Source: Rhodovulum robiginosum (lineage in GTDB: Bacteria > Pseudomonadota > Alphaproteobacteria > Rhodobacterales > Rhodobacteraceae). Taken from it: DNA of 64,000 nt. The stretch spans positions 372,001 to 436,000 of the forward strand of contig NZ_RWGU01000051.1 in assembly GCF_003944755.1 (NCBI RefSeq), read 5' to 3'. The notes below the pieces were generated by a model, which worked only from the letters and a program-made list of their open reading frames with translations, had not been told where the DNA came from and made no database searches. Below are positions 23,983-56,680 of the stretch, piece by piece (position 1 is the first letter of the stretch; every line of letters starts with the position of its first letter). The position numbers and the translations under genes were made by a program.

Positions 23983-24032
23983 CCCCCTTCTTCTTGGAAA
24001 AAATACCCGATCGCCCGGCCCCTCCGCCGGGC
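23983..24032 (+). repeat. Dispersed repeat, copy A, with adjacent hairpin between convergent genes
   Basis: CTTCTTCTTGGAAAAAATACCC (23989-24008 and on) matches the 5' core of the repeat. It is followed by GCCCGGC-ccctcc-GCCGGGC at 24013-24032, a 7-bp stem. It lies between the convergent paaK-like and cation-efflux genes and could act as a two-way transcription barrier. The G5/C5 half of the complete copies is replaced by this other hairpin. Confidence 0.55.
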
Positions 24033-35319: not shown

Positions 35320-35390
35320 TTTTCTTCTGGCCCGAAATATCCCGGGGGAGCCGCCGCGGATGCGGCGGCGGGGGCAGCGCCCCCGGGCCG
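35320..35390 (+). repeat. Dispersed repeat, copy B (most complete)
   Basis: Core TTTTCTTCTGGCCCGAAATA continues TCCCGGGGG, then a GCCGCCGCGG-at-GCGGCGG segment, then GGGGGCAGCGCCCCC at about 35370-35384. It sits between the operon terminator and the stop of the binding-protein gene, on the strand opposite to the genes. Of the copies here it shows both the 5' core and the G5/C5 hairpin most clearly. Confidence 0.7.
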
Positions 35391-40082: not shown

Positions 40083-41029
40083 CCGGCGGCGTCCCCCGCG
40101 GCCACGTTCTCGGTATCATCGCTTAGTAGCGCGGCGGCGACGCCCACGGCAATGGCCTGCGGGTGTTTTCCGAGCTCGGGCTGCCCAATCGGGCAGCGAA
40201 TGCGCGCAATCTGTGCAGGCGCATGGCCCAGCTGCCCAAGGCGGCCGCGAAACCGCGCCCATTTGCTGGCCGACCCGATCAGCCCGGCCGAGGCAAAGCC
40301 ATGGCTGAGCAGCCGGTGACACAGCTCCAGGTCCAGCGCGTGGGAATAGGTGACGATCAGGTGGTGGGCGTCGGCGGGCGCCTCGGCCGCCAGTGCGGCG
40401 GGGTCGGGTGCCGCGCGGCAGGTTACGCCCTCCGGCGCCGGATCGGGAAACCGCTCGGGCCCCGTGTCGACCCAGACCAGGGCGATATCGGGCAGGGGGG
40501 TCAGCACCCCCACCAGCGCGCGGCCCACATGGCCCGCCCCCCAAACCCAGACCGGCCGGGCCGCAGGCGCCACCGGCTCGATCAACCAGCCGCCGGCCAG
40601 CAGCGGCCCGCCCGCGCCCTGTCCGCCCCGTGCCCCCGCCACGACCCGGCGGATCGCCAGGGGCATCTCGCCCGCGCGCTGCTCCACCGGTCGGGCAAAG
40701 ACCGGGCCGGCCAGCGCCGCCACCGCCGCCGCGTCGAACACCTCGCTCACCAGCGTCACCGCGCCGCCGCAGCACTGGCCCAGCCCCGGCCCCAGCGCGT
40801 GGCGCGTCACGGCGACCGCCGGGCCATCGGCCAACTGGGCCCGCGCCGCCCGCGCGGCTGCGTATTCCAGCGCCCCGCCTCCGATCGTGCCCGCCTGCCC
40901 GCCGGGCCAGACCAGCATCGCCGCGCCGGGCTCGCGCGGGGCCGACCCTTGCGTTTGCGCGACCGCCACCCGCGCCACCCGGCCATGCGCGGCGGTCGCC
41001 GCCTCCAGCGCCGCCCGGTCCAGGCTCAT
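40079..41029 (-). CDS. xdhC: Xanthine dehydrogenase accessory protein XdhC
   Basis: 316 residues. XdhC binds molybdenum cofactor, promotes its sulfuration and inserts it into XdhB. The N-terminal part has VAQTQGSAPREPGAAMLVWPGGQAGTIGGGALE and the CCGG motif GPGLGQCCGGAVTLVSE; the C-terminal Rossmann part has VWGAGHVGRALVGVL and HHLIVTYSHALDLELCHRLL followed by GLIGSASKWARFRGRL. The ATG at 41029 overlaps the xdhB stop (ATGA). Confidence 0.94.
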   Translation of the reverse strand: MSLDRAALEAATAAHGRVARVAVAQTQGSAPREPGAAMLVWPGGQAGTIGGGALEYAAARAARAQLADGPAVAVTRHALGPGLGQCCGGAVTLVSEVFDAAAVAALAGPVFARPVEQRAGEMPLAIRRVVAGARGGQGAGGPLLAGGWLIEPVAPAARPVWVWGAGHVGRALVGVLTPLPDIALVWVDTGPERFPDPAPEGVTCRAAPDPAALAAEAPADAHHLIVTYSHALDLELCHRLLSHGFASAGLIGSASKWARFRGRLGQLGHAPAQIARIRCPIGQPELGKHPQAIAVGVAAALLSDDTENVAAGDAAG

Positions 41030-43362
41030 CCCCGCACCCGCGCGATCGCGGCCAGCAGACGCTCGGGCGTTGCCGGCGCGTCGAGCGCCGGGTAGCCCGG
41101 CCCGCAGGCCGCAACCGCGTCCGACAGCGCCAGGAAGGCCGAGATGCCCAGCATCAGGGGCGGCTCGCCCACCGCCTTCGACCGAAAGACCGTCGCGGCC
41201 CGGTTCTCGCCGGGCCAGAGATCGACGTTGAACACGTCGGGCCGGTCCGAACAGGCGGGTATCTTGTAGGTCGAGGGCGCATGGGTCTTCAGCCGTCCCT
41301 TTTCGTCCCAAAACAGCTCTTCCATGGTCAGCCAGCCCGCGCCCTGCACATAGCCGCCCTCGATCTGCCCGATGTCCAGCGCCGGGTTCAGGCTGGCGCC
41401 GGCATCGTGCAGGATATCGGTGCGCAGGATGCGGTTCTCGCCGGTCAGCGTGTCCAGCGCGACCTCGCTCACCGCCGCGCCGTAGGCGAAATAGAAAAAC
41501 GGCCGCCCGGCGCCCGCGATCCTGTCCCAGTCCAGCCCCGGGGTGCGGTAATACCCGGTCGCGCTCAGGCTCACCCGCGCCTGGTAGGCGCTTTTCGCGG
41601 CCTCGGCGAACGACATCTCGTCGTCACCGACGAAGACCCGGCCGCCGGCGAAATGCACCCGCCGGGCCTCGGTCTGGTGCGTCTCGGCCAGATGGGCCGC
41701 GATCCGTCCCCTGATCGCGTCGCAGGCCGCCTGAACCGCCATGCCATTGAGGTCTGACCCCGACGAGGCCGCGGTGGCCGAGCTGTTGGGCACCTTGCCG
41801 GTATCGGTCGCGGTGATCTTCACCGCCTCGACCGGCATGCCAAAGGCACTCGCCGCCACCTGCGCCACCTTCTGGAACAACCCCTGGCCCATCTCGGTGC
41901 CGCCATGGTTCAGATGCACCGAGCCGTCCTGGTAGACATGCACCAGCGCGCCGGCCTGGTTCAGATGGGTCAGGGTAAAGGAAATCCCGAACTTGACCGG
42001 GCTCAGCGCGATTCCGCGTCTGATCACCGTGTTTTCCGCGTTCCACGCCGCCACCGCCGCCCGCCGCCCGGCATAATCGGCGCGCTCGGCCAAAGCCTCC
42101 GTCATCTCGTGCAGGATGAAATCCGAAACCTCCATCCCGTAGGGCGTTCGGGTCTTCTTCTTGGTCGAAATACCCTCGGGGGGGCTCGGGGGGGCAGACG
42201 GCCCCCCCGCCTCTCCACCGGGCGCGTCGTAATAATTGGTGCGCCGCACCTCCAGCGGGTCGCGGCCCAGCTGGTGGGCGATGTGGTCCATCACCCGCTC
42301 GATCCCCACCATCCCCTGCGGCCCGCCAAAGCCGCGAAACGCGGTGGCCGACTGGGTATGGGTGCGCAGCCGGTGGCTCTCGATCCGCACGGCGGGCAGG
42401 AAATAGGCGTTGTCGGCATGCAGCATCGCCCGGTCGGCCACGGGCAGGCTGAGGTCCTGCGCCCAGCCGCAGCGGGCGTAGTGCACGAACTCGACGCCCG
42501 ACAGACGCCCCTCGCCGTCGACCCCGGCGCGGTAGCGAATGCGGAAATCGTGGCGCTTGCCGGTGACGATCATGTCGTCGTCGCGGTCATAGCGCATCTT
42601 GCAGGGACGGCCCGTGGCGCGGGCCGCCAGCGCGCAGGCGATGGCCAGCGCGTTGCCCTGGCTCTCCTTGCCGCCGAAGGCCCCGCCCATGCGCCGCACT
42701 TCGACACGGACGGCATGCATCGCCAGCCCCAGCGCATCGGCGACCTTGTGCTGGATCTCGCTGGGATGCTGCGAAGAGGCGTGAACCACCATGTCGCCGC
42801 CTTCCTGCGGCAGGGCCAGCGCGACCTGGCCTTCGAGGTAGAAATGCTCCTGCCCGCCGATCTCAATCTGTCCTTCCACGCGGTGGGGTGCGGCGGCGAT
42901 TGCGGCGGCGGCATCGCCGCGCGCCCAGACGCGCGGCCCCTCTTCGAAGCGGCTGTTGGCGGCCAGAGCATCGTCGATGGTCAGGATCGCCGGCGCCTCG
43001 GCGTAGTCCACCGCGGCCAGCCGCGCCGCCTTGCGCGCGGCGAGGTGGCTTTCGGCGGCCACCAGGAACAGCGGCTGGCCGTGATAGGACACCACCCAGG
43101 GCGCCAGTAGAGGCTCGTCATGGGCCGAGGGCGAGCAATCGGGCATCGGGTCCAGATCGCCTGGACCCCAGGCGGCCACCACCCCCGGCGCGGCGCGCAC
43201 GCGGTCGAGATCGAGCGCGGTGACCTCGCCATGGGCGACGGTCGACAGGCCGAAGGCCAGGTGCAACGTGCCCGCGGGCACGGGGATGTCGTCGACATAG
43301 CGCGCCTGGCCGGTGACGTGCAGCCGCGCGGCGTCGTGGGGCAGGGGTTTGGTCACGCTCAC
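41026..43362 (-). CDS. xdhB: Xanthine dehydrogenase molybdopterin-binding subunit XdhB
   Basis: 778 residues. Hydroxylates hypoxanthine and xanthine at the molybdenum centre. Seen are [21 protein letters not shown] at the N-terminus, the cofactor-binding [10 protein letters not shown], the substrate arginine in [24 protein letters not shown] and the catalytic glutamate in [11 protein letters not shown]. The start is GTG at 43362, overlapping the xdhA stop. Odd: residues about 381-404 ([20 protein letters not shown], then KKKT) interrupt the loop before [14 protein letters not shown] and are encoded by a copy of the dispersed repeat. All catalytic motifs are intact, so the enzyme is probably active. 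Confidence 0.95.
42151..42226 (+). repeat. Dispersed repeat, copy C, inside xdhB (antisense to the gene)
   Basis: TCTTCTTCTTGGTCGAAATA then CCCTCGGGGGGGCTC and the hairpin GGGGGGGC-AGAC-GGCCCCCCC run on the plus strand, while xdhB is on the minus strand. It keeps the reading frame and supplies about 24 residues rich in Gly, Pro and Lys. Same core as copies A and B. Confidence 0.7.
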
Positions 43363-44804
43363 GGCGCCACCTCGCCGATGTCGCTCGCCGCGCCGGAACG
43401 CGCGTGCCAGAGCCGCATCAGCATGTTCTGGGCGGTCGCCAGGCGGTATCCGGCCGAGGCGCGCATGTCCGATAGCGGCTGGAAATCCTCGGCCATGGCG
43501 TCACGCGCGGCGATGAGCGTGTCCTCGGCAAAGGGCTGGCCGGCGAGCGCGGCCTCGACCGCAGCCGCGCGTTTCGGGATGCCGGCCATGCCGCCGAAGG
43601 CGATGCGCGCGGATCGGATCGTGCCGTCTTCAACGGCGATGCTGAAGCATCCGCAAACCGCCGAGATGTCCTGATCGCGCCGTTTCGACAGCTTGTAGCA
43701 GCGCAGGGCATCGGGCTGGCGGGGGATCGAAACCGCCTCGACGAACTCGCCCGGGGTGCGGTCCTGTTTGCCATAGTCGAGGAAGAACTCTTCCAGCGCC
43801 AGGCTGCGGTGCGTCTCGCCCTTTCTCAGGTGCAGCGTGGCGCCCAGCGCGATCAGCGCCGGCGGTGTGTCGCCGACGGGCGAGCCGTTGGCGATGTTGC
43901 CCCCGACCGTCGCCGCCGCCCGCACCTGGGGCGAGCCGAAGCGGGCGAGCATCACCGCGAAATGCGGGTGGTGGCTTTGCATCAGCGTCATCAGCTCGGC
44001 GATCGTTACGCCCGCGCCGAGGCGGATCTCGGTGTCGGTAATCTCGATCTTCTGCAGGTCCGCGCAGCCGTTGAGAAACGCCACCTGGCCGAGGTCCTGC
44101 AGCCCCTTGGTGACCCACAGGCCCACATCGGTGGCCCCGGCGACGAGCGTGGCGTCGGGGTGCTCTTCGTACCAGGTGGCGAGTTCGTCGGCGTCGGCCG
44201 GGCGGAACGCGCCTGGGGGCTGTCCGCCCCCGGCGCCACCGTCGCTCGGACCGATGGCGCCACCGATGGCGACCCCCGAGGATATTTCGGGCCAGAGGAA
44301 CCTTGGGGCGTCGGGAAGGGTGTCTGCGAGCCAGCCGGGGCCCGGTTGAGCGGCCGCGGCCTCGGCGGCGCGGACGATGGGGGCGTAGCCGGTGCAGCGG
44401 CAGAGGTTGCCCGAAAGGGCCGTGTCATGGTCAGCCTCGCCATTGCGGTGCGCGGCGGCCAGCGCGACCGCGATGCCGGGGGTGCAAAAGCCGCATTGGC
44501 TGCCGTGATGCTCGATCAGCGCCTCCTGCACCGGGTGGAGCGTGCCATCGGGGCCGGCGAGCCCCTCGACCGTGCGCACCGCGGCGCCGTGAAGCTGGGG
44601 CAGGAACAGGATGCAGGCGTTGAGCGGCCGGGTGCCGCGCGCGTCGGTCACCATTACGGTGCAGGCGCCGCAATCGCCCTCGTTGCAGCCTTCCTTGGTG
44701 CCGGTCAGCCCGCGCGCCTCGCGCAGCCAGTCAAGCAGGGTCAGCGTGGGCGGCGGGTCGGTCAGCTCGACCGTCTCGCCGTTGAGAAGAAAGCGCAGGG
44801 GCAT
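43359..44804 (-). CDS. xdhA: Xanthine dehydrogenase small subunit XdhA (two 2Fe-2S clusters, FAD)
   Basis: 481 residues from the ATG at 44804. Electron-transfer subunit: the first 2Fe-2S cluster uses C40, C45, C48 and C64 ([10 protein letters not shown]), the second C104, C107, C135 and C137 (CGFCTPG, CRCTGY). The FAD domain begins near residue 205, with [17 protein letters not shown] and [23 protein letters not shown]. Odd: residues 169-198 (starting [14 protein letters not shown]) lie between the iron-sulfur and FAD domains and are encoded by a dispersed-repeat copy in the sense direction. The length is therefore slightly above usual bacterial XdhA. First gene of the purine operon. Confidence 0.95.
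44209..44304 (-). repeat. Dispersed repeat, copy D, inside xdhA (sense to the gene)
   Basis: On the minus strand: TCCTCTGGCCCGAAATATCC, then TCGGGGG, a 45-base middle, and GGGGGCGGACAGCCCCC. The core is identical to copy B over CTGGCCCGAAATATCC. Translated it gives about 30 residues in the linker of XdhA without breaking the frame. The middle is longer than in copies B and C. Confidence 0.7.
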
Positions 44805-56260: not shown

Positions 56261-56680
56261 GGCTCTGTTGCACAAATCCTGTCAGGGATTCATCTCGTGA
56301 CTCCAGCGTGGTAGCTGGGATACAGGCGCAGACCTACCCCCCCGATCTACAGGACCAGGAACTGGCCGGCCTAAAATGAGGCGCTGAAGCGCCGGGGCTC
56401 GCTGACGATCTGGTTCGACCCCGGGATGAGCTGGGGTGCCGCCCCGACAGGCAGGCGCTGCCGCCATCCAGACCTGCCTTTCAATGAAAGGGCTGTTCGG
56501 CATGGTCGACATTGAGAGCGTCATTGGTCCGAGCGACAATGTCGACGCTGCAGACGACCGGCTTCGTCGAGCGCCGATTGCGCCTGGCCGATCTCGACTG
56601 GACGGTGCCCGACTTCAGCACCTTGAGCCGGCGCCGGAAAACTCTGACCGCAAACATCCCGTATTGTGGGTCGATGCTGC
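56261..56680 (+). mobile_element. Remnant of an IS5-family insertion sequence (left end and broken transposase)
   Basis: GGCTCTGTTGCACAAATCC at 56261 resembles IS5/IS903-group terminal repeats. The following DNA encodes transposase pieces in more than one frame: EALKRRGSLTIWFDPGMSW-like at about 56378-56438, then TCLSMKGLF, and LQTTGFVERRLRLADLDWTV with PDFSTLSRRRKTLTANIPY at 56540-56665. In-frame stops and small deletions separate them. The catalytic DDE part and the right-hand terminal repeat are missing, so it cannot move. It lies between nrdJ and the CDGSH-fusion gene. Confidence 0.8.

Follow-up and report, generated by a model that had tools for sequence, protein, structure and literature searches.

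A dispersed bipartite DNA element of Rhodobacteraceae, found mostly between genes, has one in-frame copy in each of xdhA and xdhB of Rhodovulum robiginosum

The 64,000-nucleotide stretch of the Rhodovulum robiginosum genome analyzed here (C11:372001-436000, hereafter the window) carries xdhA and xdhB, which encode the small and large subunits of xanthine dehydrogenase, and each of these genes contains one copy of a short dispersed element. As claimed by a preliminary description of this sequence, both inserts share the same core and both reading frames stay open through them. The present analysis places them among 156 copies in the genome (G000, 3.71 Mb, 51 contigs), nearly all of which lie between genes. 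The explanation that we favour, and to which we give an even chance, is that the element serves in Rhodobacteraceae as a gene-end DNA site in two parts, which would be read by a co-evolving factor and would have been kept in two permissive linkers of the enzyme.

The consensus core is TTCTTCT(T/G)G(G/C)-NNN-AAATA(C/T)CC. Searching the genome with TTCTTCTKGSNNNAAATAYCY at up to two mismatches gave the 156 copies, while the reversed control pattern gave none, so that the core is far commoner than expected by chance. These counts, like those given below for Rhodosalinus, cover pattern-matching copies; other spellings would escape. Two forms were distinguished: form 1 (TTCTTCTTGG-N3-AAATACCY), with 96 copies (93 exact and three with one or two mismatches), and form 2 (TTCTTCTGGC-N3-AAATATCY), with 60 (56 exact and four with one or two mismatches). 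Altogether, 149 of the 156 cores are exact and seven have one or two mismatches. The 17-mer previously given as the repeat core describes one sub-form but not the xdhB copy, which belongs to the other (TTCTTCTTGG..AAATACCC). Among single copies, 18 positions (1-10 and 14-21) show little or no variation. The N3 segment is variable except for position 11, which is mainly C or T, and the flanks are diverse. According to loose patterns, form 2 is followed by a G-run in 43 of 60 copies and by a CGCCGG module in 15 of 60, and form 1 by neither in 85 of 96.

Neighbouring copies less than 250 nt apart are arranged head-to-head in all 29 pairs. Their spacing from start to start is 32-33 nt in 16 pairs, 40-44 nt in seven, 48-49 nt in three and wider in three, the 40-44 nt class lying about one helical turn above the 32-33 nt class. 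Copies are more clustered than under random placement (coefficient of variation 1.59; random mean 1.13, sd 0.12), which rules out an even spacing along the genome. By eye, some mixed pairs made of form 2 and form 1 and separated by 33 nt have common longer flanks (GGGGGGAGTCCGAAGGACGGGGGGCAG...), for example at C2:51978/52011, C36:184389/184422 and C50:154607/154640, a pattern suggestive of the duplication of a longer unit.

In the window, xdhB extends from 41026 to 43362 on the minus strand. Its insert contains an exact form 1 core (TTCTTCTTGG-TCG-AAATACCC; 42155..42175, plus strand, hence antisense to the gene), followed at 42176..42208 on the same strand by TC and a G-run hairpin with a GACGG loop. 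Core and hairpin (about 42155-42208) correspond to residues ~385-403. The xdhA gene (43359..44804, minus strand) carries in the sense orientation a form 2 core with one mismatch (TTCCTCTGGC-CCG-AAATATCC; 44280..44300, minus strand), followed at 44215..44279 on the minus strand by TC and a G-run hairpin that is split by an inner palindrome like a second repeat module. Core, hairpin and inner palindrome (about 44215-44300) correspond to residues 169-197. Pfam domains place the XdhA insert between Fer2_2 (to residue 147) and FAD_binding_5 (from 200), and the XdhB insert after MoCoBD_1, which ends at residue 377, and before MoCoBD_2, which starts at 424; the earlier assignment to a loop of XdhB and to the linker between the iron-sulfur and FAD domains of XdhA stands. 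In nicotinate dehydrogenase, separate chains lie on either side of the XdhB place (3hrd_A matches residues 16-381 and 3hrd_B residues 448-771). AlphaFold confidence (pLDDT) falls below 50 at XdhA 164-197 and XdhB 383-402, the XdhB model being weak elsewhere too (128 residues below 50).

In the 49 hairpin modules of this genome, the start and the loop covary: CGGGG occurs with an AGNG-type loop (33 intergenic modules) and TCGGG with a GACAG-type loop (six intergenic modules and both in-gene copies, which belong to this minority type), the eight other modules following neither scheme. The second module, a palindrome with the sequence CATTGGTCCGAG..GACAATGGCG or a variant of it, adjoins elements at loci L009, L015, L164, L169 and L224. 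It is present in a varied form within the xdhA insert (44231-44274), and a similar one lies at 56504-56547 of the window.

The position of the copies relative to genes was determined with a home-made hexamer gene finder, applied to stretches of the contig that carries the window and to regions round every copy (91% coding on 456 kb). It revealed 153 intergenic copies, one overlapping the 3′ end of a gene and only two lying fully within genes, namely those of xdhA (sense) and xdhB (antisense). Compared with expectations derived from gap lengths on contig C11, copies are in large excess in convergent gaps (76 observed vs 16.3 expected), somewhat below expectation in co-directional gaps (71 vs 86.9) and rare in divergent ones (6 vs 49.8). 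In co-directional gaps, 55 of the 71 copies are closer to a 3′ end. A nearest 3′ end exists for 147 copies, and in 90 of these it is at most 50 nt away. Both orientations occur among single copies in co-directional gaps (20 sense and 31 antisense). In Rhodosalinus sediminis (L077 = G396), the 64 TTCNTYTNGNNNNAAATAYNC matches include 61 intergenic copies, one overlapping a 3′ end and two fully within genes, again only xdhA (sense) and xdhB (antisense). Furthermore, an element marks 67 gene ends in Rhodosalinus, and for 16 of them a homologue in R. robiginosum also carries an element at its end, about three being expected by chance according to a rough estimate. On plasmids, form 2 is matched in 48 records; in the four that were inspected, all from Rhodobacterales, the match lies between annotated genes, at most 14 nt from a stop codon.

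The location behind genes and the convergent bias would also suit an element acting through RNA, either by terminating transcription or as a 3′-end processing signal, and so would the hairpin found behind form 2 (mean fold z of -1.36 vs -0.45 behind genes generally). However, no hairpin lies ahead of the TTCTTCTT tract: in single copies, the mean z is 0.15 for 57 form 1 and -0.24 for 47 form 2 elements. With z near 0 ahead of the core in these 104 copies and no G+C hairpin directly before the T-rich tract, an intrinsic terminator was rejected. The mixture of sense and antisense single copies in co-directional gaps also argues against an RNA signal, as does one element-like match located between the gap and aldolase genes of a Cereibacter carbon-fixation cluster. 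Overall, we consider this explanation improbable.

At the level of the order, TTCNTCTKGSNNNAAATAYNC was found in 170 of 390 genomes, all belonging to one family, the control pattern matching at least two genomes. Outside this family, six of 380 genomes gave seven matches in total, a level that chance might give. Among the matches listed, the spelling of the core is mostly uniform within a genome but differs between genomes: TTCATCTTGC..AAATATCC accounts for 56 of 60 in L106, TTCTTCTTGG..AAATATCC for 60 of 64 in R. sediminis and TTCTTTTGGC..AAATATCC for 66 of 75 in L102. In several of the six genomes compared, copies within the xdh genes are identical to the spelling of their own genome; this is the case of both copies in R. 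sediminis and of the xdhB copies of L102, L106 and R. robiginosum. Such genome-specific spelling, together with inverted pairs near gene ends and strong conservation, could evoke a DNA uptake sequence (DUS) for transformation like that of Neisseriaceae. This is nevertheless very unlikely given 156 copies in 3.7 Mb, two of them intragenic, whereas genomes with DUS harbor thousands of copies and intragenic ones are common, according to passages of PMC3630211.

To examine the in-gene copies among relatives, 80 XdhB (the best 80 of 389 loci found) and 78 XdhA sequences were aligned. With the window included, the general core at up to two mismatches is present in 18 of 79 XdhA linkers, in sense orientation, and in 32 of 81 XdhB loops, in antisense orientation. 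On the opposite strand it is found in none of the 79 linkers and in one of the 81 loops, and the remainder of the two genes contains no core at this threshold on either strand. Alignment rows devoid of the core have other residues at the insert place; relatives without similar DNA thus do not carry the same residues. Where both copies are present at up to three mismatches (15 genomes), the agreement at fixed positions is 82.6% for xdhA and xdhB copies from one genome vs 74.0% for copies from different genomes, a value not reached in any of 5000 permutations. The preliminary description proposed that the inserts add residues to both proteins. This holds for XdhA, where the median linker has 28 residues with the element vs 16 without. 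It does not hold in this simple form for XdhB (36.5 vs 47), whose loop is filled by other peptides in many relatives. Some of these other peptides, such as DL(A/T)SRGA and RFGGxHSP, recur among many of the relatives whether or not the element is there (for example in L072, L076, L105, L124 and L131).

In the genus comparison (16 genomes), a close XdhB orthologue (at least 83% identity) was found in R. robiginosum and five other genomes, three of which carry both copies (with one mismatch in xdhA of G794). In two other genomes (L340 and L341), a 58% identical XdhB has a short plain loop. Past a gene as large as the neighbouring ABC-ATPase gene, and named from its size and place, an antisense element-like core of differing spelling was detected at 10 loci (L070, L072, L078, L084, L094, L104, L107, L118, L121 and L129); in-gene flags based on longest open reading frames were excluded from this survey.

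Codon counts were made on rows chosen by peptide alone, rows chosen by DNA being circular and therefore not used, with the rest of the same genes as background. Among the 14 XdhA linkers containing [EQ]I, isoleucine is encoded by ATA in 13, the remaining one (L119, devoid of the element) using ATT; in the XdhB rows, it is encoded by ATT in 30 of 30. In the rest of xdhA and xdhB, ATA and ATT represent only 2.9% and 16.1% of isoleucine codons. Moreover, translation of the element within xdhA uses three different frames, giving FFLAEIPSGGA (L061), ASSGRKYPGGS (L107) and LLLAQNTSGEA (L111). Because of the genome-specific spelling, the uncommon isoleucine codons and these three frames, the nucleotide sequence rather than the peptide looks kept, either through selection or through renewed insertion. 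Judging from these sequences, the DNA motif and not the protein seems to set the extra residues of XdhA and XdhB. Conversely, selection of the peptides themselves for enzyme function might be suggested by their occurrence at the same two places in many relatives and by the presence of the XdhB peptide in the chain sequence of the Rhodobacter capsulatus enzyme. We give this almost no credence, since the residues vary together with the spelling and the frame, uncommon codons persist, the peptide is missing from many relatives and pLDDT stays below 50 in these segments.

The element thus lies in intergenic DNA, usually towards the 3′ end of a gene; it occurs in both orientations and frequently in head-to-head pairs. 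According to the favoured explanation, its core would be recognised by a postulated sequence-specific factor. Recognition at the DNA level is inferred from the independence of orientation and from the spacing. If the preference of this factor shifted, the sites of the genome would shift too. At gene ends, the site may serve in transcription insulation or pausing. One copy each would have been kept in xdhA and xdhB, whose linkers between folded domains would tolerate 20-30 extra residues, and there the peptide would be dictated by the DNA site rather than the other way round. The restriction of in-gene copies to the xdh genes is explained in part by permissive linkers, but many proteins have linkers.

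Several observations weigh against this explanation. Copies in xdh genes do not always follow the spelling of their genome: the xdhA copy of R. robiginosum is one base off, as is the xdhB copy of L076 (spelling TTCTTCTTGG..AAATA(C/T)TC), and an xdh copy of L069 is two bases off the AAATACTC spelling (that of the 21 matches listed out of 63); in the L111 genome, no match to the general pattern was found though its xdhA carries a related core. In Rhodosalinus, a preference for certain gaps is less evident by eye, with 16 copies in convergent gaps, 38 in co-directional, five in divergent and two in open ones, and at gene ends shared with R. robiginosum the orientation is opposite in five of the 14 unambiguous cases, which re-insertion fits as well. 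On the XdhB tree, the presence of the element is patchy, with 20 changes vs a mean of 25.2 after shuffling (6 of 500 shuffles as low). Within the genus, G790 carries the xdhB copy only and G788 the xdhA copy only, the core having been lost from its XdhB loop; the in-gene site is therefore dispensable there. It should also be emphasized that the peptide patterns used for choosing rows were set after the alignment had been viewed.

Patchiness on the tree, losses within the genus, reading in three frames and flips of orientation leave room for a serious rival, a fast-turnover mobile miniature repeat similar to REPINs or to miniature inverted-repeat transposable elements. Such a repeat would insert new copies at sites that tolerate them, chiefly downstream of genes, the xdh linkers being recurrent targets; the rapid loss of old copies would leave only fresh-looking ones, and a change of master copy would bring a new spelling. 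Head-to-head pairs as in REPINs, varied 3′ modules and, by eye, the long common flanks of some mixed pairs 33 nt apart also speak for it. However, no match to Y1_Tnp (PF01797) was found in the R. robiginosum genome at an E-value of 0.001, although the same search was positive in five of 14 control genomes. Few decayed copies within three mismatches occur among the matches listed. Unlike in REPINs, mismatches affect 3 of 104 singlets vs 4 of 52 paired copies (copies at up to two mismatches), and the N3 segment and most flanks are not homogenised. The exactness of the cores, their varied N3 and flanks, the genome-wide spelling, the pair geometry and the gene ends shared between genera are better accounted for by a recognised gene-end site than by a simple selfish repeat; we regard the mobile repeat as possible but less probable than the site.

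A further idea, which we mention as a long shot, is that the factor-read DNA site is itself selected in both molybdoenzyme genes at domain junctions. It would slow or stop RNA polymerase, or ribosomes at the hairpin, so that the cofactor domains fold in turn, and changes of spelling would rewrite the protein. If the favoured explanation is true, a non-coding DNA signal and not protein function sets part of an enzyme sequence, which follows the changes of spelling. This would explain why linkers vary in an enzyme whose structures have been solved, and would provide a route to a factor co-evolving with sites at gene ends throughout a bacterial family.

The window contains four copies in total, the two outside the xdh genes being intergenic. 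A form 2 core (35322..35342, plus strand) is followed by a G-run hairpin, and a form 1 core (23988..24008, plus strand) lies in a convergent gap, 9 nt past the stop codon of a plus-strand gene. Elsewhere in the genome, at L194:1501-1662 (C36:310596-310757), two outward-pointing elements flank an intergenic stretch of about 120 nt, located between two genes named by eye as encoding a DNA polymerase III alpha-type (dnaE2-like) protein and a lytic transglycosylase. This stretch is possibly a small RNA; Rfam, searched there at E-values of up to 1, gave one match, below its cut-off. Among the matches listed, nine other genomes show a pair of -+ orientation with a spacing of 146-194 nt, which does not imply identity with this place.

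Several other candidates were rejected. A strand bias along the chromosome, suggested by part of the order-level matches, was not retained, strands being mixed in three genomes. For a guide RNA matching the core, the matches listed in the R. robiginosum genome at up to three mismatches are element copies, plus one other-looking site with three mismatches (C8:29188). A phage origin was dismissed: 27 viral contigs match the pattern, but by eye only six of them (G+C 0.62-0.71) are element-like, the others being chance-like. In 17 element loci, Rfam gave no match above the gathering cut-off. Literature searches by words and strings found no description of the element, a weak absence as subscription papers are mostly outside their coverage; TTCTTCTTGGCC was the sole string found, in no paper relevant by title. 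A name search of PMC5217627 and PMC3733652 gave no match to Rhodobacter, Roseobacter, Ruegeria or like names.

The element shares features with several known systems. The XdhAB enzyme of R. capsulatus (PDB 1jro, 2w3r) is a full-length homologue whose XdhB chain sequence carries the insert peptide; its XdhA linker, AQLSSGVRGQ, differs and looks like a drifted version. As with REPs and REPINs, which sections of PMC3116915 present as short extragenic repeats often forming inverted doublets, all 29 pairs found here are inverted. However, REPs mobilized by a RAYT transposase do not correspond to our element, as PF01797 has no match in this genome, singlets are not more degenerate than doublets and the core is bipartite with a free N3. 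The DUS of Neisseriaceae, of which one genome contains 4549 according to the parts of PMC3630211 considered, also differ in spelling between genomes ("dialects") and form inverted pairs near gene ends, but our element has far fewer copies and is nearly absent from genes. Finally, the likeness to Rickettsia palindromic elements (RPEs) put forward in the preliminary description is limited to repeat DNA translated in frame as extra enzyme residues. From the passages of PMC10969869 consulted, RPEs are about 150 bp long and almost half of those of R. conorii lie in open reading frames of unrelated genes. Such frequent insertion does not characterize the present element, for which two of 156 copies in R. 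robiginosum and two of 64 in R. sediminis lie fully within genes, and these are the same two genes, xdhA and xdhB.

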